Origin: Selenomonadaceae bacterium
GTDB taxonomy: Bacteria; Bacillota; Negativicutes; Selenomonadales; Selenomonadaceae
Direction of reading: 5' to 3'
Assembly (NCBI GenBank): GCA_017446845.1
Contig: JAFSOQ010000112.1
Span: forward strand, 1 to 32,692
DNA: 32,692 nt
The translations under genes and the position numbers were made by a program. Shown piece after piece: positions 944-29,645 of the stretch (the first letter of the stretch is position 1; the number at the start of each line of letters is the position of its first letter). Under the pieces are notes generated by a model, which saw only the letters and a program-made list of their open reading frames with translations, searched no databases and was not told the DNA's origin.

Positions 944-985
944 GGTTAGGGTTTTTCCCCTAACTCCTAACTCCTAAATCCTAAG
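944..985. repeat. Heptad repeat (CCTAACT/CCTAAAT units) with small hairpin
   Basis: The short pnp-downstream gap is made of heptads CCTAACT, CCTAACT, CCTAAAT, the complement of the TTAGGAG family seen elsewhere in the window. Its left part (GTTAGGG, short T-rich loop, CCCTAAC) can fold into a hairpin that may act as a weak terminator after pnp. Confidence 0.6.
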
Positions 986-1000
986 AAGGGAGATTTTTCA

Positions 1001-1384
1001 ATGGCAACGCTTGACAGATTTAAAGAAGCAACGGAAACGGGCACAATCATCGACGCGAACGATTTGGAAGTTCCGCTTTCCGCACAACTGAAATACGATT
1101 TTCTGGCGGCAATTCACACAATGGAGCAACTCGAAAAACTCGCGCGGGAAATCGAAAATCGCAAAAGGTCTCGCATAAAATTGGAAGACGAACTTTTTAA
1201 AAGTTGCAAGCAAATGCTCAAAAAGCTCGGCGACGACGAAAAACCGCTCACGCTCAGAAAAATCGACGACGCAATTAAAACGCTCAACGATTGCCGCCGC
1301 GAGATTATGAAAATCGACAGCGCGGCTCGTGAAAGCGATAAACTTGCAAAACTCATCAAAGACGGAATTTCTGCGGGAAGTTGA
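1001..1384 (+). CDS. Unrecognised helical protein, 127 aa
   Basis: I do not recognise this family. The ATG at 1001 has a good ribosome-binding site (AAGGGAG, 9-10 bases upstream). The product is highly charged, has no signal peptide or membrane segment, and looks almost wholly alpha-helical, with coiled-coil-like stretches around residues 40-75 (MEQLEKLAREIENRKRSRIK) and 80-120 (KIDDAIKTLNDCRREIMKID). Codon use matches its neighbours. It follows pnp after a heptad-repeat hairpin and precedes an FMN-binding protein. Nothing ties it to a pathway; a small cytoplasmic structural or adaptor protein is possible but unsupported. Confidence 0.8.
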   Translation: MATLDRFKEATETGTIIDANDLEVPLSAQLKYDFLAAIHTMEQLEKLAREIENRKRSRIKLEDELFKSCKQMLKKLGDDEKPLTLRKIDDAIKTLNDCRREIMKIDSAARESDKLAKLIKDGISAGS

Positions 1385-1390
1385 ATTCAA

Positions 1391-1414
1391 TTAGGAATGA
1401 GGAATTAGGAATTG
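1391..1414 (+). repeat. TTAGGAA-type repeat forming RBS and TTG start
   Basis: The stretch TTAGGAATGAGGAATTAGG, followed by AATTG, belongs to the dispersed TTAGGAA/G repeat family. It sits directly before the next gene, supplying the AGGA/GAGG-like ribosome-binding bases and possibly the TTG start codon at 1412. Confidence 0.6.
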
Positions 1415-1924
1415 AAAAGTTCGACATTCAGAGAAATGCGGCGCAGTAAACAAGTTTTGTCGCAAGAAACGGCAGAAAAAATTTTGCGCGAAGGTGAATT
1501 CGGAATTTTGGCACTTTCGGGCGACGACGGTTACAATTACGCCGTGCCGATTAATTACGCCGTCGAAGGCAACAAAATTTATTTTCACAGCGCGAAAACC
1601 GGTCACAAACTCGACGCGATTAAAAATAACGATAAAGTTTCATTTTGCGTCGTCGACCGGCACGAAGTCGTTGCCGAAGAGTTCACGACTTATTTCACCA
1701 GCGCGATTGCCTTTGGGCGAATAAAAATTGTTGAGGACGATAACGACCCCGATAAATTGCGCGGGCTTGAACTTTTGGCGGATAAATATTCTTCGACGGC
1801 AAGTCCCGCTCGTCGCGAAAAAGAGTTATCACGTTTAAGCGCGTTGGTTGTCCCCGTCATGACGATTGAACATTTGACGGGCAAGGCGGCTCGCGAACTT
1901 TTTAAGCGCGGAGATTTTTCTTAA
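1412..1924 (+). CDS. Pyridoxamine 5'-phosphate oxidase-family (NimA-like) FMN-binding protein
   Basis: A split-barrel flavin-binding protein of the NimA/PPOX-like family, about 170 aa, the usual size. It carries the family opening FREMRRSKQ, the strand pair YNYAVPINYAVEGNKIYFHSAKTGHKLD (about 44-71) and the core NDKVSFCVV (about 75-83). Such proteins bind FMN and reduce small substrates; some act on nitroimidazoles, but the substrate cannot be read here. Start: TTG at 1412 keeps the FREMRR motif and lies in a repeat that supplies the RBS. An in-frame ATG at 1436 is the alternative. The relB/relE-type pair follows after 21 bases. Confidence 0.88.
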   Translation: MKSSTFREMRRSKQVLSQETAEKILREGEFGILALSGDDGYNYAVPINYAVEGNKIYFHSAKTGHKLDAIKNNDKVSFCVVDRHEVVAEEFTTYFTSAIAFGRIKIVEDDNDPDKLRGLELLADKYSSTASPARREKELSRLSALVVPVMTIEHLTGKAARELFKRGDFS

Positions 1925-1945
1925 GCAAAAGGAGCGTGATTAACA

Positions 1946-2170
1946 ATGGTTGAAGTGACTGTAACTTTCACTGAAGGAGCCGTCGAATTGATGAAAGGTT
2001 TTGCGGCCGAAAAAGGACTTACTTTGTTGGAATATGTTAAGCAAGCAGTGCTCGACCGCCTTGAAGACGATGAAGATATTCGCGACGCGGACGCGGCTTA
2101 TGCGGAGTACTTGAAAAATCCGGTGACAATTTCGCACGAAGAATTAAAACGGGAGCTTGGATTGTTATGA
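1946..2170 (+). CDS. RelB-like antitoxin (DUF6290-type)
   Basis: A 74-aa acidic protein of the RelB/DUF6290 antitoxin kind: a short beta strand VEVTVTF (residues 2-8) as in ribbon-helix-helix proteins, a helix ending in LLEYVKQAVLDRLED, and an acidic C-terminal part (DDEDIRDADAAYAEYLKN) typical of the toxin-wrapping tail. The RBS is AAAAGGAG. Its stop overlaps the toxin start (ATGA at 2167-2170), the normal translational coupling of type II toxin-antitoxin genes. Such antitoxins usually repress their own promoter; no operator was identified here. Confidence 0.85.
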   Translation: MVEVTVTFTEGAVELMKGFAAEKGLTLLEYVKQAVLDRLEDDEDIRDADAAYAEYLKNPVTISHEELKRELGLL

Positions 2171-2436
2171 AGCAATACAGCGTCGACTACGACCCGCACG
2201 TAATAAAAAAACTTAACAAGCTTGATACGTCCGTTCGTAACCGAATTATTACATGGATTGATGAACACTTGGTTAGTTGCGAAAATCCTCGATTGCTCGG
2301 CAAGGCATTGCACGGCGATCGGCACGGGCATTGGCGTTATCGCGTCGGCGATTATCGAATTATCGCCAAGATTGAGGACGACAAAATTATTATCTTCGTC
2401 GTGAAGATTGACAAGCGCGGCGAAATTTACGACTGA
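2167..2436 (+). CDS. RelE/ParE-family toxin
   Basis: An 89-aa RelE-superfamily protein: QYSVDYDPHVIKKLNKLD at the start, a central LLGKALHGDRHGHWRYRVGDYRIIAKIED and a final strand KIIIFVVKIDKRGEIYD. The block WRYRVGDYRIIAKI is the hallmark RelE beta-sheet with the Arg residues used by ribosome-dependent mRNA interferases of this group. It overlaps the antitoxin gene by four bases. It appears intact and full length. RelE-type mRNA cleavage is the likely activity; a ParE-type gyrase target is less likely but not excluded. Confidence 0.88.
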   Translation: MKQYSVDYDPHVIKKLNKLDTSVRNRIITWIDEHLVSCENPRLLGKALHGDRHGHWRYRVGDYRIIAKIEDDKIIIFVVKIDKRGEIYD

Positions 2437-2454
2437 TTTTTTTGAGGAGGCGTC

Positions 2455-3207
2455 ATGGAAAAAAATTTTTTAACTTACAACATGGAAGTCAACGGACTGT
2501 TGCAGGAAGTCAAATTCAGCAAAGAGGCAATCGAAGAAATTTTTATGCCGTTCCTGCACGGGTTGACCGATTTAAAAATGACAATGGACAGAAAAGTTAT
2601 CGCGTACCTTGTCTCGCCGCCCGGAGCAGGTAAATCGACGCTGGCACAATTTTTGGAGCAATTAAGCCGCGAACGTTCCAACGAAGTCGATACGATTCGC
2701 GCACTCGGCATGGACGGTTTCCACTACACGGCGGCTTATATGAACGTCACCAAAGTCGAACGCGACGGCGAAGAAGTTTTGATGCGCGACATTAAAGGTG
2801 CGCCCGAAACTTTTGACATTGATTTACTCGTCGAGAAAATTCGCGAGGTACGTTCGGAAGGCACCAACTGGAATATTTACGACAGAAAAATTCATGACGT
2901 CTTGCCCGATTATTGGAGCGTCGAAGATGATATTCTTTTAATCGAGGGAAATTATCTGCTGCTCAAAGATGCGGGCTGGACTAACGTCCGAGTGCTTGCG
3001 GATTATTCTGTCTTCATTGACGCCGAACCTAATCTTTTGCGCGAACGATTAATCAATCGTAAAATCGCGGGCGGCAAGTCTCGTGAGGAGGCAGAAAGAT
3101 TTTTCGACTTCAGCGACAGCAAAAATATCGAACGCGTCTTGAAAAATTCTGCGCGGGCTGACGAAACTTGGAAACTTTTGCCCGACGGCGATTTTGAAAA
3201 AAATTAG
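2455..3207 (+). CDS. P-loop nucleoside/sugar kinase family (uridine kinase/phosphoribulokinase-like)
   Basis: A 250-aa P-loop kinase of the uridine kinase/phosphoribulokinase-like group often annotated as nucleoside/nucleotide kinase family. The Walker A motif is PPGAGKST (residues 55-62). A substrate-loop motif MDGFHY follows (86-91), then an acidic strand ILLIEGNYLLL (about 160-170). The C-terminal part LLRERLINRKIAGGKS matches the lid region with catalytic Arg residues. ATG 2455 has a strong RBS (GAGGAGG). The physiological acceptor (nucleoside, sugar or pantothenate-like) cannot be told. The gene closes with a long heptad-repeat hairpin. Confidence 0.8.
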   Translation: MEKNFLTYNMEVNGLLQEVKFSKEAIEEIFMPFLHGLTDLKMTMDRKVIAYLVSPPGAGKSTLAQFLEQLSRERSNEVDTIRALGMDGFHYTAAYMNVTKVERDGEEVLMRDIKGAPETFDIDLLVEKIREVRSEGTNWNIYDRKIHDVLPDYWSVEDDILLIEGNYLLLKDAGWTNVRVLADYSVFIDAEPNLLRERLINRKIAGGKSREEAERFFDFSDSKNIERVLKNSARADETWKLLPDGDFEKN

Positions 3208-3301
3208 GAGTTAGGAGTTAGGAGTTAGGATTTAGGATTTAGAGAAAAACCCTTAACTCCTAAATCCCAACTCCTAACCCCCGGACAGGAATGAGGAATT
3301 G
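3205..3301. repeat. Heptad-repeat block TTAGGAG/TTAGGAT with inverted arm
   Basis: Tandem heptads TTAGGAG (four) and TTAGGAT (two) are followed, after a short A-rich loop, by an inverted arm of CCTAACT/CCTAAAT-type heptads and then by an AGGAATGAGGAATTG segment. The arms can pair into a long imperfect hairpin. The block begins at the stop codon of the kinase and runs into the TTG start of the next gene. Confidence 0.85.
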
Positions 3302-4165
3302 GGAATTAGGAATGTAAAAAGCTCAAAATTTAAAGCTCATGCAAACAACGTAGCATTGCCGCACACGATTTTTAGTTTGCCGTTCGCGTTGGCGAGTGCA
3401 TTCATGGCGGCGGACGGTCATCCCGATTTTTGGACGGTCATTTTAATTTTGGTCGCGATAACTTCTGCGCGGTGGGCGGCAATCGCAATCGACAACCTTG
3501 CCGATTTAAAATACGACAAACTTCAGCCGCGCTTATCTTATCGGGCAATGGTGCGCGGCGAAATTTCCAAGGGCGAGGCGTTAATTTTTATCCTGCTTTG
3601 CATAATCGTCTTGGTCGTGACGGTCGCACAACTTCCGCCGATTTGCTTAAAACTTTTGCCCGTCGCGGCGATTCCGTTCATAATTTATCCGTTCACGAAA
3701 CGATTTACCGCGTATTGCCATTTATGTTTGGGCGTTGCGATTGCAATGGCTCCGGCGGGCGCGTGGGTCGCCTTGACCGAAAAAATTTCCTTGCCGATGA
3801 TAATTTTGTGCGTGGCAGTCGCGTTGTGGATTGGAGCTTTCGACGCGGTTTACGGCGCACAAGACGAACAATTCGACAAATCTCAACGGCTCCACTCCTT
3901 GGCGACAAAATACGGCGCGGCGGGCGCATTGAACATCGCCAAAGGTCTTCACGTCGTGTCAATCATCTGCTTCGTGACGGTCGGGCTTATGCTCGGCTTG
4001 GGCAAGTTGTATTTCGTCGGCGTCTTGATTGCGGCGATTGCTCTGATTTATCAGCACGCGCTTGTTAAGGCGGGCGATTATCGCGAAGTCACTCAAGCCT
4101 ACTTCATGCGCAACGGAATTGTTTCTATCGCGATTTTTATTTTTACTTGGCTCAGCTACGATTAA
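3299..4165 (+). CDS. UbiA-family 4-hydroxybenzoate-type polyprenyltransferase
   Basis: A 288-aa multi-pass membrane protein of the UbiA superfamily, the length and order of the MqnP/UbiA-like type that prenylates an aromatic quinone precursor. The first Asp-rich motif reads DNLADLKYD, where the family consensus has Asn first (NxxxDxxxD); the PR..R element follows (QPRLSYRAMVRGEIS). The second motif is FDAVYGAQDEQFD. About eight hydrophobic helices can be seen. No ATG lies upstream of the first conserved helix (LPHTIFSLPFALA), so TTG 3299, within the repeat block, is the best start. Menaquinone (futalosine-route) synthesis is the likely pathway by family, not proven. A terminator follows. Confidence 0.85.
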   Translation: MGIRNVKSSKFKAHANNVALPHTIFSLPFALASAFMAADGHPDFWTVILILVAITSARWAAIAIDNLADLKYDKLQPRLSYRAMVRGEISKGEALIFILLCIIVLVVTVAQLPPICLKLLPVAAIPFIIYPFTKRFTAYCHLCLGVAIAMAPAGAWVALTEKISLPMIILCVAVALWIGAFDAVYGAQDEQFDKSQRLHSLATKYGAAGALNIAKGLHVVSIICFVTVGLMLGLGKLYFVGVLIAAIALIYQHALVKAGDYREVTQAYFMRNGIVSIAIFIFTWLSYD

Positions 4166-4495: not shown

Positions 4496-5338
4496 GTCGC
4501 GCATGCCTCCTTACCGTTTACGGTTTTGAAACTTCTGTCGCCCAACTTGCAGCTTCATCTACTTTGATGACGCCAGTCGCGCATGCCTCCTTACCGTTTA
4601 CGGTTTTGAAACTTTGGGCTGCGGGTATACGGTTACCATACAAATCAAAGAAGTCGCGCATGCCTCCTTACCGTTTACGGTTTTGAAACTAGAGAGGAGT
4701 TCGTCCGGGAAGAGTACGATCGTTTCACCGTACAGTCGCGCATGCCTCCTTACCGTTTACGGTTTTGAAACTACTCATGATCATGAACCGAGTCTGGATT
4801 GCCCGTTTGAAGTCGCGCATGCCTCCTTACCGTTTACGGTTTTGAAACACGATTCATCAACTCTACAGCTTTCTCAAACTTGCGGGCCTCTAGTCGCGCA
4901 TGCCTCCTTACCGTTTACGGTTTTGAAACTTCCAGCCATCTATATTACTTCCTTTCAAAATTTCAATATAATTGTCGCGCATGCCTCCTTACCGTTTACG
5001 GTTTTGAAACATTTATACGATGTCTGCAGTCCTTGAGGCTGACATTAAAACCTAGTCGCGCATGCCTCCTTACCGTTTACGGTTTTGAAACCTGCGATTA
5101 TCAATTACCTTGAAGAAGTCGATTTTGCTAAACAGTCGCGCATGCCTCCTTACCGTTTACGGTTTTGAAACTGGCACGGCCACTTGTGCGGTAAACGTCA
5201 ACGTCAAGCATGTTGTCGCGCATGCCTCCTTACCGTTTACGGTTTTGAAACTCGTTAAATCTACGATCAGGAATCTCAACTTTAATGGTCGGAGTCGCGC
5301 ATGCCTCAGAATCCCTACCCGTTCACGGTGTCTGAAGT
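4496..5338 (+). CRISPR. CRISPR array 1: 10 intact repeats plus degenerate terminal repeat, 10 spacers
   Basis: Ten identical 37-base repeats beginning GTCGCGCATGCC and ending CGGTTTTGAAAC start at 4496, 4576, 4653, 4735, 4812, 4893, 4974, 5055, 5135 and 5215. Spacers are 40-45 bases (42 for the last). Each repeat contains the stem ACCGT-TT-ACGGT. The eleventh repeat, from 5294, has a 7-base insertion (AGAATCC) and a changed 3' half (GTGTCTGAAGT) and marks the leader-distal end. Direction is left to right: promoter left, degenerate repeat and terminator right. Long spacers and a nearby CARF-HEPN gene suit a type III-linked array, but no cas operon is present. Spacer targets cannot be determined here. 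Confidence 0.98.
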
Positions 5339-5561: not shown

Positions 5562-5599
5562 AAATCTCACCTCCTTTCAAAACTCAGACGCTGTAAGAA

Positions 5600-5641
5600 T
5601 TAATCCCGAAGGAGCAACCACAACAACAACAACTCACCCAT
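5600..5641 (-). CDS. Micro-ORF A, 13-aa Leu-rich peptide MGELLLLWLLLRD
   Basis: ATG at 5641 follows AAAGGAGGTGAGAGC, an excellent Shine-Dalgarno context. The peptide is a single very hydrophobic stretch ending in Arg-Asp. It is one of two copies 78 bases apart that differ only at Leu/Trp position 7. The RBS and the peptide are both conserved between copies, which favours translation. Function unknown; a small membrane peptide is the natural reading. Confidence 0.55.
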   Translation of the reverse strand: MGELLLLWLLLRD

Positions 5642-5677
5642 GCTCTCACCTCCTTTCAAACTCGGACGCTGTAAGAA

Positions 5678-5719
5678 TTAATCCCGAAGGAGCAACCACC
5701 ACAACAACAACTCACCCAT
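5678..5719 (-). CDS. Micro-ORF B, 13-aa Leu/Trp-rich peptide MGELLLWWLLLRD
   Basis: Tandem duplicate of micro-ORF A with the same RBS (AAAGGAGGTGAGAGC before ATG 5719) and the same ends MGELLL and LLLRD; the only peptide change is Leu to Trp at position 7. The codon for position 7 is TGG here and TTG in the other copy. Function unknown. Confidence 0.55.
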   Translation of the reverse strand: MGELLLWWLLLRD

Positions 5720-5750
5720 GCTCTCACCTCCTTTCAAGAAGAAAACTTAC

Positions 5751-5869: not shown

Positions 5870-5992
5870 TTAACAGCTCCCTTCAATCGATGACAGATAT
5901 TTAATTTTCAAACAGCTTGGTCGTCCCTGACCTTGCAAGCGAAGTATAGCAGGAAGTTCTGAGGAAGTCATTTCAAGTTTCCTGCGAATCAA
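5870..5992 (-). CDS. Possible 40-aa ORF (TTG start) inside repeat element copy 1
   Basis: A TTG at 5992 follows AAAGGAGGTGCC. The predicted peptide begins with TTG-encoded Met then IRRKLEMTSSELPAILRLQG. It reads entirely through a copy of the 117-119 bp repeat (promoter plus hairpin) and ends two bases before the 38-aa gene. The strong RBS argues for translation, perhaps only to couple ribosomes to the next gene. The repeat nature argues that the peptide itself may not matter. Confidence 0.3.
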   Translation of the reverse strand: MIRRKLEMTSSELPAILRLQGQGRPSCLKIKYLSSIEGSC

Positions 5993-6004
5993 GGCACCTC
6001 CTTT

Positions 6005-6109
6005 CTATCGCAGACGATATTTTTTCAAGCAGCTTGGTCGTCCCTGACCTTGCAGGCTAAGTTTAGCAGGAAGTTCTGAGGAAGTCATTTCAAGTTTCCT
6101 GCGAATCAA
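6005..6109 (-). CDS. Possible 34-aa ORF (TTG start) inside repeat element copy 2
   Basis: TTG at 6109 follows AAAGGAGGTGCC. The peptide has the same first 15 residues as the ORF in the neighbouring copy and stops at TAG 6007-6005, which directly precedes the next AAAGGAGG. In the next copy to the right, the RBS is degraded to AAAGCAAGG and no comparable ORF exists. Treat it as a doubtful coding region. Confidence 0.25.
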   Translation of the reverse strand: MIRRKLEMTSSELPAKLSLQGQGRPSCLKKYRLR

Positions 6110-6296
6110 GGCACCTCCTTTCTATCGTCGACAATATTTTTTTCAAGCAGCTTGGTCGTCCTTGACCTTGCAGGCTAAGTTTAGCAGGAAGTTTTGAGGA
6201 AGTCTTTTTAATTTTCCTGCGAACTGAAACCTTGCTTTCTATCGTCGGCGATATTTAATTTTCAAGCAGCTTGGTCGTCCTTAACCTTGCAAGCGC

Positions 6297-6325
6297 AGTA
6301 TAGCATGAGATTTCGCGGCAGTCTT
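6297..6325 (-). promoter_or_regulatory. Probable promoter of the minus-strand micro-ORF operon
   Basis: On the minus strand AAGACT (6325-6320), 17 bases, then TGC-TATACT (-10 at 6302-6297), an extended -10 with a weak -35. The same arrangement, AAGACT-17-TAATAT, occurs in the fifth element near 8.8 kb, supporting the assignment. Confidence 0.5.
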
Positions 6326-6349
6326 TTCAATTTTCCTGTGAATCAAAAC

Positions 6350-15894: not shown

Positions 15895-17007
15895 TTGAAA
15901 ATTTTCAGCTCTGAAGATGTTTTGCGCATTGCCAAAAGATTCAAGAACACGCGGCGAAATTATTTGCTGGTCAATCCGCTGCAAGGTAAACATTTGCCGA
16001 CAAAACCTTCTGCCGCCCTCGAAATGATGAATTCTTTAGGCAAAATGGTCGCTGAAAAATTTTCTTCGGCGCGATTGGTTATCGGATTCGCTGAAACGGC
16101 TACGGCAATCGGCGCAGTTGTCGCAAAAAATTTATCGGACGAGTGTTTTTACATTCAAACGACTCGCGAAGACTTCAACGGAACTTTCGTTGAATTTTTG
16201 GAGGAGCACAGCCACGCGCCCGAACAAAAACTTTTTGCCGAAAATCTTTCCACGCTGATTAATCAGACGTCGGAAATAATTTTTGTCGACGATGAACTTT
16301 CGACGGGCAAAACTCTTTTGAACATTGTTCGCCAACTTAAAAATAAATTCTCCGCGCTCAACGACAAAAAAATCTGCGCAGCGTCGATAATCAATCGATT
16401 GTCGGAGGAAAATCTTGCGGCATTGGCGGCGGAAAATATTTTCTGCGTTTATCTCGTCAAGCTCGAAAAAAATTTCGACGCGGATAAATTTTCAATCACT
16501 TCGGCAAGTGAAGTCTCAGACGCACACCAAAAAACTTGTCCCTTGTCCGTTGTCCCTTTTCCCTTACAAGATACAAGATTCGGCGTAAAAATCGGCGAAT
16601 ATTTTAATAAGTGCGAGGAACTTGGAAATTTTATCGCTGAAAATTTCCGGCGCGAGAAATTTGGCGAAGTTTTGATTTTGAGCACGGAAGAATTTATGTT
16701 GCCCGCGATTATCGTCGGACGGAAGTTGGAAGAAAATTTTTCGGTCGTGACACACTCGACGACGCGCAGTCCGATTGGCATTTGCAAGGATAAAAATTAT
16801 CCGATTCGCGAGGGATTCAAGCTTAGAAGTTTCTACGATTCGACGCGCACGACTTTTATTTACAACTTAAAATTTTACGACGCGGCGATTATCGTGACGA
16901 ACGCCGAAAATTTTTCTGAGGGGCTTGAAGATTTAATTTCTGCGTTGAATGTTCACGGCGTCGGGAAAATTTTTTGTGCGGAGGTTAAAAATGTTCGGGA
17001 CTTATAA
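15895..17007 (+). CDS. PRTase-TRSP domain protein of the Ter-associated module
   Basis: A 370-aa two-domain protein. The N-terminal phosphoribosyltransferase domain opens with NPLQGKHLPTKP (about 23-34) and has the PRPP-binding loop IIFVDDELSTGKTLLNI (about 129-145). The C-terminal TRSP domain carries its name-giving motif in HSTTRSPIG (about 284-292). In Ter-linked clusters this protein is thought to act in synthesis of a nucleoside-like metabolite. TTG 15895 has GGAGGTG seven bases upstream. Oddly, the interdomain linker (about residues 214-227) is encoded by tandem CTTGTCC heptads. The 3' end overlaps the StiP gene by 17 bases. Confidence 0.88.
   Translation: MKIFSSEDVLRIAKRFKNTRRNYLLVNPLQGKHLPTKPSAALEMMNSLGKMVAEKFSSARLVIGFAETATAIGAVVAKNLSDECFYIQTTREDFNGTFVEFLEEHSHAPEQKLFAENLSTLINQTSEIIFVDDELSTGKTLLNIVRQLKNKFSALNDKKICAASIINRLSEENLAALAAENIFCVYLVKLEKNFDADKFSITSASEVSDAHQKTCPLSVVPFPLQDTRFGVKIGEYFNKCEELGNFIAENFRREKFGEVLILSTEEFMLPAIIVGRKLEENFSVVTHSTTRSPIGICKDKNYPIREGFKLRSFYDSTRTTFIYNLKFYDAAIIVTNAENFSEGLEDLISALNVHGVGKIFCAEVKNVRDL
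16535..16576 (+). repeat. CTTGTCC heptad tandem inside a coding sequence
   Basis: CTTGTCC, CTTGTCC, GTTGTCC, CTTTTCC, CTTACAA and GATACAA follow each other in phase. Together they encode the linker residues CPLSVVPFPLQDT of the PRTase-TRSP protein without breaking its frame. The same unit forms the inverted repeat at 11552-11591. Confidence 0.8.
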
Positions 17008-18040
17008 GGCGCAAGACGTGACGATTTTATTAAAAGACATAAGCGGACTGGTCGAACCGCTCGGCACGCGCGAACGGGAAAAATTAATTCAATCGGGGCG
17101 ACACTATTCGGAAATGCTGCCGATTGAGTACGAGCCGTCGGAAAAATATTTGCAAGCATATTTCTACGCGCTCAATCGTTATTCAAAAATCACCGCCGCC
17201 GCCGTCGCAAATGTCGCCGAAAAAATTTTCCTCGACAAGGGCAAAAAAATCGCGTTGGTATCTTTGGCGCGAGCAGGCACGCCGATTGGAATTTTGATTA
17301 AGCACTATCTGGAGAGAAAATTTCCTTGCGCGGTTACTCATTACACAATCTCGATTATTCGCGGCATCGGCATCGATAAAAACGCCGTCAATTTTATTTT
17401 ACAACGTCACAAGCCCGAAGAAATTCAATTTGTCGACGGCTGGACCGGCAAAGGCGCAATTCAACGCGAACTCAACAAAGCAATAGAAGATTTTCCCGAA
17501 GTCAACGCGGGCTTGGCTGTTTTGAGTGATCCGGCGGGCGTCGCGGATAAATGCGGCACTCACGAAGATTTTTTAATTGCAAGTTCATGTTTGAATTCGA
17601 CGGTCAGCGGACTTTTGAGCCGAACTTTTTTGCGCAACGACATAATCGGCGCGGAAGATTTTCACGGCGCGGCTTTTTACTCCGAACTTGCCGACAAGGA
17701 TTTAACTTATCAATTCATCAACGCGATTGAAAAGCATTTCGACGACTTACCCGAAATAAAAAATTCCGCCGTCGAAATGAACAGCGGGCTTGCCGAGGTA
17801 AAAAAAATCGCCGCAGATTTTAAAATCGCCGACATAAATTTAATCAAGCCGAGTATCGGGGAGGCAACGCGGGTTTTATTGCGCCGCTTGCCATGGAAAA
17901 TTTTGGTGCACAGTTTGCACGATGAAAAACATCTTGGACATCTGTATCAGTTGGCAAAGGAGAAGGGCGCACCGCTCGAAGTTTATCCGCTGAAAAATTA
18001 TAAAGCTTGCGGATTGATTCAGCGGCTCGCCGATAATTGA
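16991..18040 (+). CDS. StiP-like cysteine protease with PELOTA RNA-binding domain
   Basis: A 349-aa protein of the StiP family of Ter-associated clusters. The StiP part shows IALVSLARAGTPIG, THYTISIIRGIGID and the conserved FVDGWTGKGAI (about 146-156). The C-terminal PELOTA-like domain reads LIKPSIGEATRVLLRRLPWKILV. ATG 16991 has GGAGG upstream and overlaps the PRTase-TRSP gene by 17 bases, so they are co-translated; an in-frame start at 16949 lacks this support. Family roles in metabolite processing are predictions from comparative genomics. It is the last gene before the toxin/antisense RNA tandem. Confidence 0.88.
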   Translation: MFGTYKAQDVTILLKDISGLVEPLGTREREKLIQSGRHYSEMLPIEYEPSEKYLQAYFYALNRYSKITAAAVANVAEKIFLDKGKKIALVSLARAGTPIGILIKHYLERKFPCAVTHYTISIIRGIGIDKNAVNFILQRHKPEEIQFVDGWTGKGAIQRELNKAIEDFPEVNAGLAVLSDPAGVADKCGTHEDFLIASSCLNSTVSGLLSRTFLRNDIIGAEDFHGAAFYSELADKDLTYQFINAIEKHFDDLPEIKNSAVEMNSGLAEVKKIAADFKIADINLIKPSIGEATRVLLRRLPWKILVHSLHDEKHLGHLYQLAKEKGAPLEVYPLKNYKACGLIQRLADN

Positions 18041-18054
18041 CATGAAAATTTATT

Positions 18055-18168
18055 CGCCTCCGATTTTTGGAAGCGGTCTTTTGCGTTTATTAAATCTATC
18101 GCAAAAAAGAAATCCCGGTGGCTGGTCGGGACTTCTTGCACATTTTAGAGAGTAATGCTAACTACGCG
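18055..18168. repeat. 114-bp perfect direct repeat, copy 1 (remnant unit)
   Basis: Identical over 114 bases to 18438-18551. It contains the 3' part of an antisense-RNA terminator (CGCCTCCGATTTTTGGAAGC) and the minus-strand terminator region of peptide 1. The 5' part of the RNA gene is missing here, so this is the remains of a further unit left of peptide 1. Confidence 0.9.
18102..18137 (-). terminator. Terminator of the peptide 1 transcript
   Basis: On the minus strand AAGTCCCG and CGGGATTT form the stem, followed by CTTTTTT. The same terminator is found in the second unit (18485-18521). Confidence 0.75.
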
Positions 18169-21145: not shown

Positions 21146-22870
21146 TCACAGCTCGTCGACTTTCTTCAGCAGAAGCGTCGCAAGGATGTCGGCACTTGCC
21201 AGCTCTATGTCGTCGGGGACACTTTGCCCCGCTGTTATGTATGACAGCGCATATTTTGTATCATGCAGCAGATTTACAATCATGCCGAGGCTGCTCGTCT
21301 CGTCAATCTTTGTGAAAATTATTTTATCGGGTTCGACCAGCGAAAATTTATTCATAATGTGTCGGGCATCGGTAAATTTGGTTGTCGCGCTTATGACCAA
21401 ATGTTTTTCGATTCGCGGATTTACGCGCAGAAATTCTTCAAGCTCGCGCATTTGATATTCATTGTGCTGACTGCGCCCCGCCGTGTCGATTAAAATCAAA
21501 TCTTTATCGCGGTGGCGTTCAAGTGCAGAGGCAAGTTCGGGCGGATTGTAAACGATGTCCAGCGGCAATTCCAAAATGTCGGAATAAGTTTTGAGCTGTT
21601 CAACTGCGGAGATTCTGTAAGTGTCGGCAGTCACCAGCGCAACATTCGTCCTTTGCTCCAAAACAAATTTCGCGGCGATTTTGGCAAGCGTCGTAGTTTT
21701 TCCGACACCCGTCGTGCCCAACAGTGCGACAATCCTCACACCGTGACGATTGAGTTTTACGCCTTCGGAAAATCTGACGTGTTCATTAAGATAACGAATC
21801 AGCGTCGACTTGGCGGCGGGCGTGTGAACGTCGACAAGAGTATCGCCGGCATTTGATTGCGCTGCCATCTCGTTTAAAATTTCCTCGTCGACTTCTTGAC
21901 CCTTCAAAGCCTCGTGCAAGGAAATTGTTCCTCTGTTCGTGCCGCGTCCCAAAACTTCAGCGAGCAACGCTTTCATCTGCGCGATTTCTTCTTCGAGCCG
22001 CTTAATTTTTTCTTCGTTCTGCGAAGAGGGAGTCGGCATGATTACGTTTTGTTGCGCTTGAGCCTCTTGTTGCAAGCGGATTTGTTCGACGGCTTGCGCT
22101 TGTGCTTGAGCGATTGCCGCCTGCTGCATCATTTGCATTTGATTGAATTGCGCCATAATCATTGCCTGCGTCTGCGCCATTTGCTCTTGAGTAAATCCTG
22201 CGCTCTCTGCGGTCGGAGGATTTTCTTCGGCGGGTTTAGATTCTTCAGCGGGCTGAGATTTTTCTTCGGGCTGAGATTCTTCGACGGGCTGAGATTCTTC
22301 GACGGGCTGAGATTTTTCAGCGGGCTGAGATTTTTCAGCGGGCTGAGGATTTTCTTCAGCGGGCTGAGATTCTTCAGCGGGCTGAGGATTTTCTTCAGCG
22401 GGTTGAGATTCTTCGACGGGTTGAAGTTCTTCGGCGGGCTGAGGTTCTTCGACGGATTGAGATTTTTCTTCGGCGGGCTGAGATTCTTCTTGCTTAGCCG
22501 TTTCGAGCAAGTCATCAAAATTTTGCGGTTCGGGGTTTTGATTTTCTTGTTCGGAAGATTTTTCGTTGAGAGCCTCGATAGATTGTTCTGCATTGGCAAC
22601 GGCTTGAGCGGTGCCGTCGGTTTTGTATCGTGTCACAAGCGGATTGGGCGTAACCGTCGGGTGCTTAAGTTGCGGCTCTTCAGTTTTTTTCGGCAAAGAA
22701 CTTTCTTCGACCGCCGCAGTTATCTCCACGACTTCGCGGCTCCCGATTCCCAAAATTCCGCCCTCTTTATATTTTTTGCTGTGCAATATGACAGCTTCGT
22801 CGCCGAGTTCGGCTTTCATTGCCGCCATTGCGTCTTTCATATTGCCCGCTTTAAAAACTTTTATCTGCAA
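21146..22870 (-). CDS. flhF: Flagellar SRP-type GTPase FlhF
   Basis: A 574-aa SRP-family GTPase. The N-terminal B domain is MQIKVFKAGNMKDAMAAMKA. A very long low-complexity linker follows (about 115-215) of near-repeats such as QPAEESQPAEENP, then a Gln-rich stretch (MAQTQAMIMAQFNQMQMMQQ). The NG domain has G1 GTTGVGKT (385-392), G3 DTAGRS (462-467) and TKID (520-523). TTG 22870 is the start, after GGTGG. FlhF places the first flagellar components at the cell pole. The usual neighbour flhA is absent; the gene here starts the operon from its own promoter, divergent from leuS. Confidence 0.95.
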   Translation of the reverse strand: MQIKVFKAGNMKDAMAAMKAELGDEAVILHSKKYKEGGILGIGSREVVEITAAVEESSLPKKTEEPQLKHPTVTPNPLVTRYKTDGTAQAVANAEQSIEALNEKSSEQENQNPEPQNFDDLLETAKQEESQPAEEKSQSVEEPQPAEELQPVEESQPAEENPQPAEESQPAEENPQPAEKSQPAEKSQPVEESQPVEESQPEEKSQPAEESKPAEENPPTAESAGFTQEQMAQTQAMIMAQFNQMQMMQQAAIAQAQAQAVEQIRLQQEAQAQQNVIMPTPSSQNEEKIKRLEEEIAQMKALLAEVLGRGTNRGTISLHEALKGQEVDEEILNEMAAQSNAGDTLVDVHTPAAKSTLIRYLNEHVRFSEGVKLNRHGVRIVALLGTTGVGKTTTLAKIAAKFVLEQRTNVALVTADTYRISAVEQLKTYSDILELPLDIVYNPPELASALERHRDKDLILIDTAGRSQHNEYQMRELEEFLRVNPRIEKHLVISATTKFTDARHIMNKFSLVEPDKIIFTKIDETSSLGMIVNLLHDTKYALSYITAGQSVPDDIELASADILATLLLKKVDEL

Positions 22871-26577: not shown

Positions 26578-26580
26578 AAA

Positions 26581-26660
26581 AATTAGGAATTGGGAGTTAG
26601 GAATTAGTAATTAAAACTGCAACGTCCTCATTCCTAATTCCCCATTCCAAATTCCTAATT
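26581..26660. repeat. TTAGGAA-family inverted repeat block
   Basis: Left arm AATTAGGAATTGGGAGTTAG.. and right arm ..CATTCCTAATTCC..AAATTCCTAATT can pair over about 30 bases around a short loop. It fills the gap between rplQ and the FHA gene and may act as a transcript-end or processing hairpin. Confidence 0.8.
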
Positions 26661-26665
26661 GCTTT

Positions 26666-29190: not shown

Positions 29191-29207
29191 CTGTTTAGCC
29201 TCCTTTT

Positions 29208-29272
29208 AATTAGGAGTTAGGAGTTAGGAGTTAGCAGTTAGAAGCTAACCACTAATCACTAATCGCTAACCA
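29208..29272. repeat. TTAGGAG heptad block between rpsK and rpsM
   Basis: TTAGGAG units in tandem, then degenerate TTAGCAG/TTAGAAG and inverted CTAACCA/CTAATCA-type units, which together can fold into a hairpin. It sits inside the ribosomal protein operon immediately after the rpsM stop codon (minus strand). Confidence 0.85.
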
Positions 29273-29273
29273 C

Positions 29274-29645
29274 TTACTCTTTCTTCTTGCCCTGGACGAG
29301 TTTCTTGGGACCCTTGCGAGTCCTGGCGTTGTTCTTGGTGTTCTGTCCACGAACAGGGAGACCGAGACGGTGACGGCGTCCGCGATAACAGCCAATATCA
29401 ATGAGTCGCTTGATGTCCATCTGGATATCGCGGCGGAGGTCGCCCTCCACGACGAAATTGTGGTCGATGGCATCACGAAGTTTAACAACATCGTCATCCG
29501 TGAGATCTTTCGTGCGGGTGTCGGGGTTGACGCCTGTCATCGCCAAAATTTTCTGCGACGTGGGCAACCCGATTCCGAAAATGTACGTGAGAGCGTATTC
29601 GATTCTCTTGTCACGGGGCAAATCTACACCGGCTATACGTGCCAT
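29274..29645 (-). CDS. rpsM: Ribosomal protein S13
   Basis: 123 aa, typical: [35 protein letters not shown], then [20 protein letters not shown] and a Lys-rich tail. GGAGGTG precedes the ATG. It lies in the usual order after rpmJ; S13 contacts the head of the 30S subunit and bridges to 50S. Confidence 0.98.

Follow-up and report, generated by a model that had tools for sequence, protein, structure and literature searches.

Dispersed period-7 repeat modules at gene junctions of Quinella-like bacteria and their apparent contribution to translation starts

Heptad repeats dispersed among bacterial genes have been described before. Among the closest cases is the heptamer TAACTGA, found as direct repeats in Beggiatoaceae, cyanobacteria, and Bacteroidetes (MacGregor 2015, PMC4679880); in the parts of that paper devoted to them, these repeats consist of one fixed heptad with one inverted set among 170 and little Shine-Dalgarno (SD) character. 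Among small structured repeats, the pneumococcal SPRITE elements have AAAA/TTTT ends and may act as terminators, according to passages of PMC3049150. The main text of a review on miniature inverted-repeat transposons (MITEs; PMC10969869) contains neither "ribosome" nor "start codon," and in the literature searched, no title or abstract describes a hairpin-ribosome-binding site (RBS) cassette of the kind reported below.

We analyzed a 32,692-nucleotide stretch of DNA (here called the window). Its host is a Quinella-like bacterium, whose relatives inhabit ruminant guts. A preliminary description had named several intergenic blocks of TTAGGAG/TTAGGAA heptads, and arrays were found at these blocks. 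The window has 23 occurrences of TTAGGAR where 5.1 would be expected (maximum of 12 across 100 shuffles). Counting and mapping were extended to the host's own assembly (2.19 Mb, 73.6% complete), which contains three perfect TTAGGAG units in a row 33 times (backward control, 0). In the 406 kb of this genome that were scanned, we found 63 arrays of period 7, 35 of period 14, 13 of period 21, 5 of period 18, 2 of period 15, and 1 each of periods 9 and 12; the same 406 kb holds 78 array clusters, 65 of them mostly intergenic. When the window was scanned together with 38 related loci (L009-L046; 423 kb in total), period 7 accounted for 36 arrays, period 14 for 22, period 18 for 4, and period 21 for 2, with no array of any other period between 4 and 21; the 445 kb of 36 outgroup loci had no period-7 arrays and one each of periods 12 and 16. 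The heptads are genuine: they far exceed chance, and most of them lie between genes. They also occur outside the genus, in 2 genomes of other genera. As a side observation, triple TTAGGAG is present in 15 viral contigs (IMG/VR). The unit first proposed proved too narrow: its sequence is variable (AATGCGT, CCCTTGT, TTAGTGA, GTGTCAG, and others), while the period of 7 persists. Period 7 as an absolute rule was rejected, as period 8 also occurs. The features of the window are as follows.

943 to 984, + strand: hairpin GGTTAGGG/CCCCTAAC plus CCTAAnT array (tandem array 959-984) in the gap between pnp and the gene starting at 1001 (X)
985 to 1000, + strand: RBS tail GAAGGGAGATTTTTCA, a short form of the conserved tail described below, immediately 5' of ATG 1001
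1389 to 1413, + strand: one-arm array AATTAGGAATGAGGAATTAGGAATT; GAGGA at 1399-1403 is a candidate SD
1412 to 1414, + strand: TTG start of the PNPOx-family gene 1412-1924 (PPOX); the relatives' start position reads ACA
3204 to 3277, + strand: two-armed heptad hairpin, including array 3204-3242; TAG at 3205-3207 ends the kinase-like gene UK (2455-3207)
3287 to 3314, + strand: second, G-rich array; AGGA at 3287-3290 is a candidate SD, and TTG at 3299-3301 starts the UbiA gene (3299-4165)
26581 to 26660, - strand: heptad hairpin (arrays 26581-26613 and 26625-26660) followed by a T run, in the gap between rplQ and an FHA-domain gene
29210 to 29274, - strand: heptad hairpin (arrays 29210-29241 and 29245-29274) in the rpsM/rpsK gap, with the native AAAAGGAGG SD of rpsK retained

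That these blocks form hairpins, as initially suggested, was borne out by predicted folding at 3200-3320 (z = -3.2) and on the minus strand at 26578-26665 (z = -5.7) and 29191-29273 (z = -3.5); folding was weak at 940-1003 (z = -1.37), and the single arm at 1391-1414 did not fold (z = -0.65).

The heptads had further been proposed to supply both the SD and the TTG start of the genes at 1412 and 3299. At both positions, the unit before the TTG has an AGGA at a distance of 8 nt from it, and comparison of orthologous gaps with and without the repeat supports repeat-made starts at both genes. All 28 syntenic relatives start PPOX with ATG, TTG, or GTG before TTC-AGA-GAA. This start codon is lost in the window, which leaves two candidates: the heptad TTG with its heptad SD, and an ATG inside the gene (1436) that has no SD. 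In L179, which is not syntenic, an ATG stands where the window has the heptad TTG. For the UK-UbiA junction, we compared 30 loci including our own, 26 of them syntenic: 18 carry a native ATGA overlap, 7 carry heptads in its place, and 1 is unclear (L137). In six of the seven heptad loci, heptads contain both the stop of UK and the start of UbiA, with an SD score of at least 4 in four loci and a weak score (2) in L128 and L142; the seventh, L139, keeps the native ATGA, its array having turned into N-terminal codons. The native AAAGCTC beside the UbiA site is itself multiplied in several relatives.

The broader suggestion that a spreading repeat creates or retunes translation starts fits 1412 and 3299 and fails as a general rule. 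Across the 406 kb of the host genome, an array lies within 60 nt upstream of 40 out of 341 genes (starts called by a custom script). The SD is outside the array in 31 of these, 6 start in or at the array with a heptad SD (one of them doubtful), and 3 have no SD.

The preliminary description missed a stronger form, a subfamily in which a variable, mostly period-7 hairpin is joined to a separate conserved tail, CTAAAAATCGACYGAARGGAGATTTT; the SD lies in this tail, which ends at the start codon. We analyzed 79 tails (78 of the 95 exact copies and one with a mismatch), whose uniformity is partly built in by the search pattern. A start codon opening 30 codons lies at +5 to +10 of the tail in 78 of the 79 copies, compared with 582 of 3,894 random nearby anchors; the exception is L235, whose tail is ~95 nt upstream of its gene. 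The copies belong to 56 gene families. Of 18 host-genome proteins taken from this set, the 10 scanned fall into 10 different Pfam families, including EF-Ts, RNAP omega type, DNA polymerase III delta', SecD, HIT, and YbaB. A same-strand open reading frame ends within 220 nt upstream of 69 of the 79 tails (median stop-to-tail distance of 60 nt; n = 70). A period-7 or period-8 array lies beside 66 of them, with a best period of 7 in 64, and a recognizable array is missing at 13. A universal hairpin constraint was unsupported: folding reached z < -2 in 51 of the 79 copies and not in the other 28, and the tsf copy of G000 did not fold at all. Exact copies occur in 21 of 66 genus genomes. With up to one mismatch, the tail was found in 14 of 300 class genomes, all among the 25 genus members drawn, and in none of the 275 nongenus genomes searched (backward control, 0). 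Viral carriage of the tail was rejected, with no exact match in IMG/VR, and Rfam gave no match over the gathering score (11 sources, 81 kb). The comparison shows a tail that stands before the start codons of many genes in many species and, in the genomes surveyed, is confined to the genus.

At two junctions, the cassette occupies a place where relatives have other RBSs. Of 30 rpsB-tsf loci including our own, 21 have the TGAGGTGA SD, 5 the conserved tail, 1 a diverged tail, 2 a second SD tail, AAAAATGACAAGGAGATTTTT, and 1 the TGAGGTGA SD preceded by an octad hairpin (all classes except the five tail loci were assigned by eye). At the pnp-X junction, the tail is present in 4 of 29 loci, our own having the short form; here, the pnp stop codon TAG (940-942) abuts the hairpin, and the RBS type of several relatives, AAAGGAGCGATTGAA, is absent from 985-1000. 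On a small tree of 24 taxa (three genes, midpoint root, with the unclear L137 counted as filled), the states are scattered, taking 4 changes for 5 taxa, 3 for 4, and 7 for 7; phylogenetic clustering of states was not seen on it. Mean 8-mer sharing between array units of different genes is 0.123 when both lie in one genome (320 pairs) and 0.044 when they lie in two (2,651 pairs), a difference reached in 0 of 2,000 permutations. For units at one gene compared across genomes, the mean is 0.081 (32 pairs), descriptively closer to the within-genome figure than to the background; every median is 0.02 or 0.

The blocks are probably copies of a dispersing family of intercistronic modules, about 20 to 110 nt long, in Quinella-like bacteria. 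Such a module is a tandem array, or an inverted pair of arrays folding to a hairpin, with units of 7 nt or, in some species, 8 nt. Some modules also have the tail, which has the SD inside a small predicted hairpin and ends 5 to 10 nt before the start codon. Copies take the place of native operon junctions (a stop codon, a terminator, an RBS, or a stop/start overlap) and are probably tolerated because they bring what a junction needs: a stop-containing 7-nt unit passes through all frames within 21 nt, and the AGGA of one unit sits 8 nt before the ATG or TTG of the next. They may move by recombination or transposition with a putative enzyme and gain or lose units via slippage and foldback copying, while selection would favor copies that leave both flanking genes functional; the starts they carry may actually be used. 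Comparison between loci shows junction replacement at a few sites, where the stop, SD, and start lie inside the module, and some modules appear to provide the stop, RBS, or start of neighboring genes, essential ones included. More tentatively, and at slightly less than an even chance, the tailed form may be a mobile translation-initiation cassette that spreads as a whole junction (stop, hairpin, and SD hairpin) and repeatedly displaces the RBSs of essential genes, its arms being rewritten in each genome at a constant 7-nt period.

The modules could instead be ordinary MITEs moved in trans by an insertion sequence transposase, with RBS effects as by-products, a possible reading that we find rather doubtful. 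Their short, noncoding, many-copied form suits it, as do the frequent inverted arms, the mostly intergenic clusters, the dispersed copies with a common loop (3 in 406 kb), and the recurrent ends CTAAYTGATAGAA (27 copies in the assembly) and AAAAGCAATTAGG. However, no fixed terminal repeat runs through the copies (subsets share GATAGAA or AAAAGC at their ends, and many have neither), and at the tsf, X, and UbiA junctions read, native bases are missing and no target-site duplication was noticed, though a repeated AAT at L142 could be one. Moreover, unit sequence at one site differs between genomes, and the genes at whose start codons the tail ends are unrelated. In a search limited to Y1_Tnp, Y1 transposases were found in 7 of 66 genus genomes and in none of the array-rich genomes G000 (73.6% complete), G013 (94%), and G022 (85%). 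Reverse transcriptases were found in 21 of the 66, with two in G013 and none in G000 or G022. Neither enzyme was retained as the driver, as their presence does not track array number; the Y1 (RAYT) transposase expected of the REP/RAYT group is absent from these three genomes.

It is unlikely that the tail is instead the regulon mark of an immobile leader, an RBS hairpin bound by a protein or small RNA and kept by selection. The conservation of the tail, its SD within a small hairpin, and its recurrence at the same gene in several species speak for such a leader, as does a coupled change of the inner hairpin pair (C-G in 69 copies, T-A in 9, and C-A in 1). Covariation support is modest because of the inner-pair exceptions (with one mismatch allowed, more tails appear, and among those listed, the pair is C-A in two further copies and T-G in one) and because 10 of the 79 tails do not keep the outermost pair. 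Against a leader stand the different RBSs used by other species of the genus at the gene after pnp and at tsf, the mixed gene functions, and the scatter on the tree. It can be combined with dispersing modules that were mobile first and regulatory later.

A role solely as transcription terminators or mRNA stabilizers, irrelevant to translation, seems still less credible. Arrays fill the rplQ-FHA gap in 14 of 29 loci; 12 of these 14 are without a canonical terminator motif, which 14 of the 15 array-free loci have (judged by eye), and most filled copies have a T run. A stem with a T run, as in intrinsic terminators, is present at 26581-26660 and absent at 29210-29274, and arrays inside ribosomal operons are without T runs. 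The gap context of arrays (44 tandem, 13 divergent, 6 convergent, and 2 at edges) is close to that of background gaps of at least 50 nt (144 tandem, 33 divergent, and 27 convergent), so a preference for operon 3' ends was rejected; the SD and start evidence also opposes a terminator-only role. Local slippage of long simple sequence repeats without dispersal is very improbable. In its favor, the long simple sequence repeats of many genomes are most often heptads (according to parts of PMC4679880), AAAGCTC is multiplied next to the UbiA site, and unit number differs between orthologous copies. Against it count the loops, ends, and tails that recur at loci unrelated to one another, the inverted arms, and the RBS replacement, and the dispersed tail contradicts slippage as the sole cause.

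If the mobile-cassette reading is true, it would describe a selfish or semiselfish element living on translation-initiation regions. RBSs themselves could then spread from gene to gene, which would change the reading of operon evolution and start codon annotation in the genus. Native and replaced junctions of the same essential gene in related species provide natural experiments on making and swapping translation starts, and the cassette offers a compact, naturally portable intercistronic part.

Among known systems, pneumococcal BOX, RUP, and SPRITE are likewise small structured repeats within operons, but they form conserved sequence families, with target-site duplications for BOX and RUP, and the passages of PMC3049150 concerned do not describe RBS replacement. 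The GGGNATC heptads of Xanthomonas and Nostoc are similarly dispersed, mostly between aligned open reading frames, but form G-quadruplexes; the abstract of PMC4692102 mentions neither inverted arms nor an SD tail. The class I/II heptad stem in P6b of the Nostoc trnL intron, as presented in portions of PMC4476775, resembles our modules in its 7-nt-repeat stem, two unit types with one structure, unit gain and loss, and repeated replacement at one site, and differs in being a single site inside an intron without an RBS. The TAACTGA repeats, as far as the relevant parts of their description go, share with our modules tandem, dispersed, mostly intergenic 7-nt units just 5' of start codons and also within ribosomal operons. 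In place of one fixed direct unit with little SD character, the modules of Quinella-like bacteria have variable units, inverted arms, and an SD or start carried by the unit itself or by a conserved tail.

The assembly holding the window (contig C95) comprises 2.19 Mb in 142 contigs and is 73.6% complete. Assemblies of Selenomonadaceae/Selenomonadales supply the relatives with 74 to 93% RpoA identity; many of them come from ruminant guts, and four of their loci are labelled Quinella. Veillonella and others come next (38 to 60%). Our evidence comes from the comparison of draft assemblies, with starts called by script. The genes around the repeat blocks are as follows:

Beside repeat blocks, end of pnp (S1/KH domains)
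1001, X, gene of unknown function
1412, PPOX, PNPOx-family gene
2455, UK, kinase-like gene
3299, UbiA
Remaining genes around the blocks, FHA-domain gene, L17, S11, and S13
rpoA and rpsD, assigned by relation to other loci

A small open reading frame (ORF) between repeat blocks (2167 to 2436) presumably resembles a RelE/ParE-type toxin partner.

The preliminary description reported dispersed TTAGGAG/TTAGGAA heptads in the window, with blocks at 944 to 985, 1391 to 1414, 3205 to 3301, 26581 to 26660, and 29208 to 29272; the heptads proved to be in excess and to form arrays at these positions. When periods of 4 to 21 were scanned, period 7 and its multiples predominated in related loci, and the same scan found no period 7 arrays in outgroup loci. 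Within 406 kb of the window's own genome, 86% of it coding by script gene calls, 65 of 78 array clusters were mostly intergenic. Runs of three TTAGGAR units occurred in 34 of the 66 genomes of the genus, at 0 to 237 matches per genome, and in 16 of 300 genomes from the class, of which 14 belong to the genus and 2 to other genera of the family. The backward control of this pattern gave zero in all genomes but G010, G011, G012, and G030; G011 had 23 backward versus 6 forward matches, which may reflect another unit type. Units of 8 nt, with otherwise similar architecture, were seen in genomes G053 (locus L222) and G065 (L166 and L299) and at loci L025, L026, and L044. Fifteen IMG/VR viral contigs (L275 to L289) bear three perfect TTAGGAG units, at five places in L285. 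A window array of CTTGTCC and then TACAAGA (16535 to 16579) lies within a called ORF (15895 to 17007), so that either these heptads are coding or the gene boundary is misplaced. At locus L101, a very long AATTGGG-type array (18014 to 18149) is open as LGIGNWE repeats, and the start of the next gene is ambiguous. Longer tandem units are present in the window at 4811 to 5011 (81 nt), 5565 to 5737 (78 nt), and 5877 to 6346 (117 nt), where the gene caller placed no gene, and at 22223 to 22489 (18 nt, about 14 copies), within a minus-strand ORF (21146 to 22870).

Comparison of upstream regions revealed identical stretches preceding unrelated genes. The assembly has 11 copies of GAARGGAGATTTTTYA, mostly inside the longer CTAAAAATCGACYGAARGGAGATTTT, whose exact copies number 19 in the same genome and 95 across 21 of the 66 genus genomes. 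We read 79 copies of this Shine-Dalgarno (SD)-bearing tail from 21 genomes, sampled by exact pattern (78 of the 95, plus L170 with one mismatch). They precede genes of 56 families, and in 78 a start codon stands 5 to 10 nt past GAGA; random anchors placed close to these loci gave 15%. In the one exception, L235, the tail is about 95 nt upstream of its reading frame, which we take to resemble phosphofructokinase. Upstream of the tails were a same-strand ORF end (69 copies), an apparently divergent gene (3), no ORF (6), or insufficient flank (1), and the upstream stop lay inside or within 7 nt of the array in 41 of 70 copies. The tail is predicted to fold as AAAAATC/GATTTTT enclosing CC-GAA-GG (z = -1.7; 16 of 200 shuffles equally good). 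Its inner pair is C-G in 69 copies, T-A in 9, and C-A in 1, with two further C-A and one T-G among the one-mismatch copies listed; these changes lend modest support to the structure. Window block 944 to 1000 has a short form, CCTAA-GAAGGGAGATTTTTCA, common to two other loci read. A second SD tail, AAAAATGACAAGGAGATTTTT, with an inverted repeat around the SD, occurs upstream of tsf in L303 and L309, its only copies among the loci compared. Another recurrent element end, CTAAYTGATAGAA, is found at 27 places in the window's genome, followed by an AGGGAG SD at some and by unrelated sequence at others.

Hairpin folding of the tail copies is frequent yet not constant (median z = -2.7; below -2 in 51 of 79). 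At tsf, one tail is common to four species, with units that differ among them. Units of different genes had more in common when they came from one genome than when they came from two (mean sharing of 0.123 versus 0.044; 0 of 2,000 permutations), and units at the same gene in different genomes had a sharing of 0.081 (32 pairs). The arms therefore appear to be rewritten or replaced between species, on a species time scale and perhaps with partial memory of the site. Units also grow locally: the native AAAGCTC adjoining the UbiA site has multiplied in several relatives.

Copies occupy junctions that are built differently in relatives. Between rpsB and tsf, 21 of 30 loci carry TGAGGTGA; the others have the tail (five), a diverged tail (one), another SD tail (two), or the TGAGGTGA SD preceded by an octad hairpin (one), all classes except the five tail loci being assigned by eye. 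All that is left of the native sequence in the tsf tail carriers is a few bases directly ahead of ATG, and the rpsB stop continues into the first unit at L290, L295, L297, and L309. Between pnp and X, the tail is present at 4 of 29 loci (in short form at the window's own), periodic hairpins with a different SD are seen by eye at L165, L166, L181, and L182, and ribosome-binding sites (RBSs) elsewhere are diverse, AAAGGAGCGATTGAA being one type. Arrays lie between rplQ and the FHA-domain gene at 14 of 29 loci, 12 of these without a canonical terminator; of the 15 loci without arrays, one lacks a gap and the other 14 have such a terminator, as judged by eye. Arrays are also found at rpsM-rpsK (6 of 29 loci), rpsK-rpsD (6 of 35), and rpsD-rpoA (7 of 38), and at 0 of 39 loci in the rpoA-rplQ gap. 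Since copy presence is scattered on a midpoint-rooted three-gene tree and reversion to a native RBS is unlikely, the pattern suggests repeated gain at junctions. Interspecies exchange by homologous recombination could be another source of the scatter.

Heptads appear to supply start codons at UK-UbiA and PPOX, as the preliminary description proposed, but not as a rule: of 40 array-proximal genes in the genome sample, 31 are preceded by an SD outside the array, the start codon falls in or at the array for 6 (including the doubtful L101:18037), and 3 lack an SD. The UK-UbiA set comprised 30 loci, four without a UK neighbor and one (L137) of ambiguous state. In 18 of 26 syntenic loci, UK and UbiA meet in the native ATGA overlap, and in seven, heptads begin at the overlap. 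In six of these seven, the UK stop and UbiA start both lie within heptads, with SD scores of 4 (four loci) or 2 (two loci); at L139, the array has turned into the UbiA N terminus. The PPOX start codon is kept in 28 of 28 syntenic relatives. The window has ACA at that position, leaving TTG 1412 with GAGGA of the preceding unit 8 nt upstream; L179 carries ATG where this TTG stands, and an internal ATG at 1436 is a possible alternative start.

The unit length itself may explain why such units are tolerated. As 7 is a multiple of three plus one, a stop in the unit would close every frame within 21 nt, and if the unit holds AGGA together with ATG or TTG, each AGGA would lie 8 nt upstream of the start offered by the next unit. 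Because of this phase and spacing, a copy landing over a stop/start junction could restore both signals in any frame. Surviving copies would then be expected to be enriched at junctions with no need for targeting, and the observed enrichment matches that expectation; precise targeting is also possible. We infer this argument as a whole from sequence.

A bolder reading would make the cassette (hairpin arms plus tail) a mobile RBS; our transposase comparison covered the Y1 family. Heptad arrays near starts (TAACTGA repeats), heptad stems (trnL P6b), and small structured repeats in general (BOX, SPRITE, and MITEs) are already known. The cassette family belongs with such dispersed heptad and small interspersed repeats but is set apart from known members by inverted arms that change quickly and by a tail that brings the SD up to the start codon.
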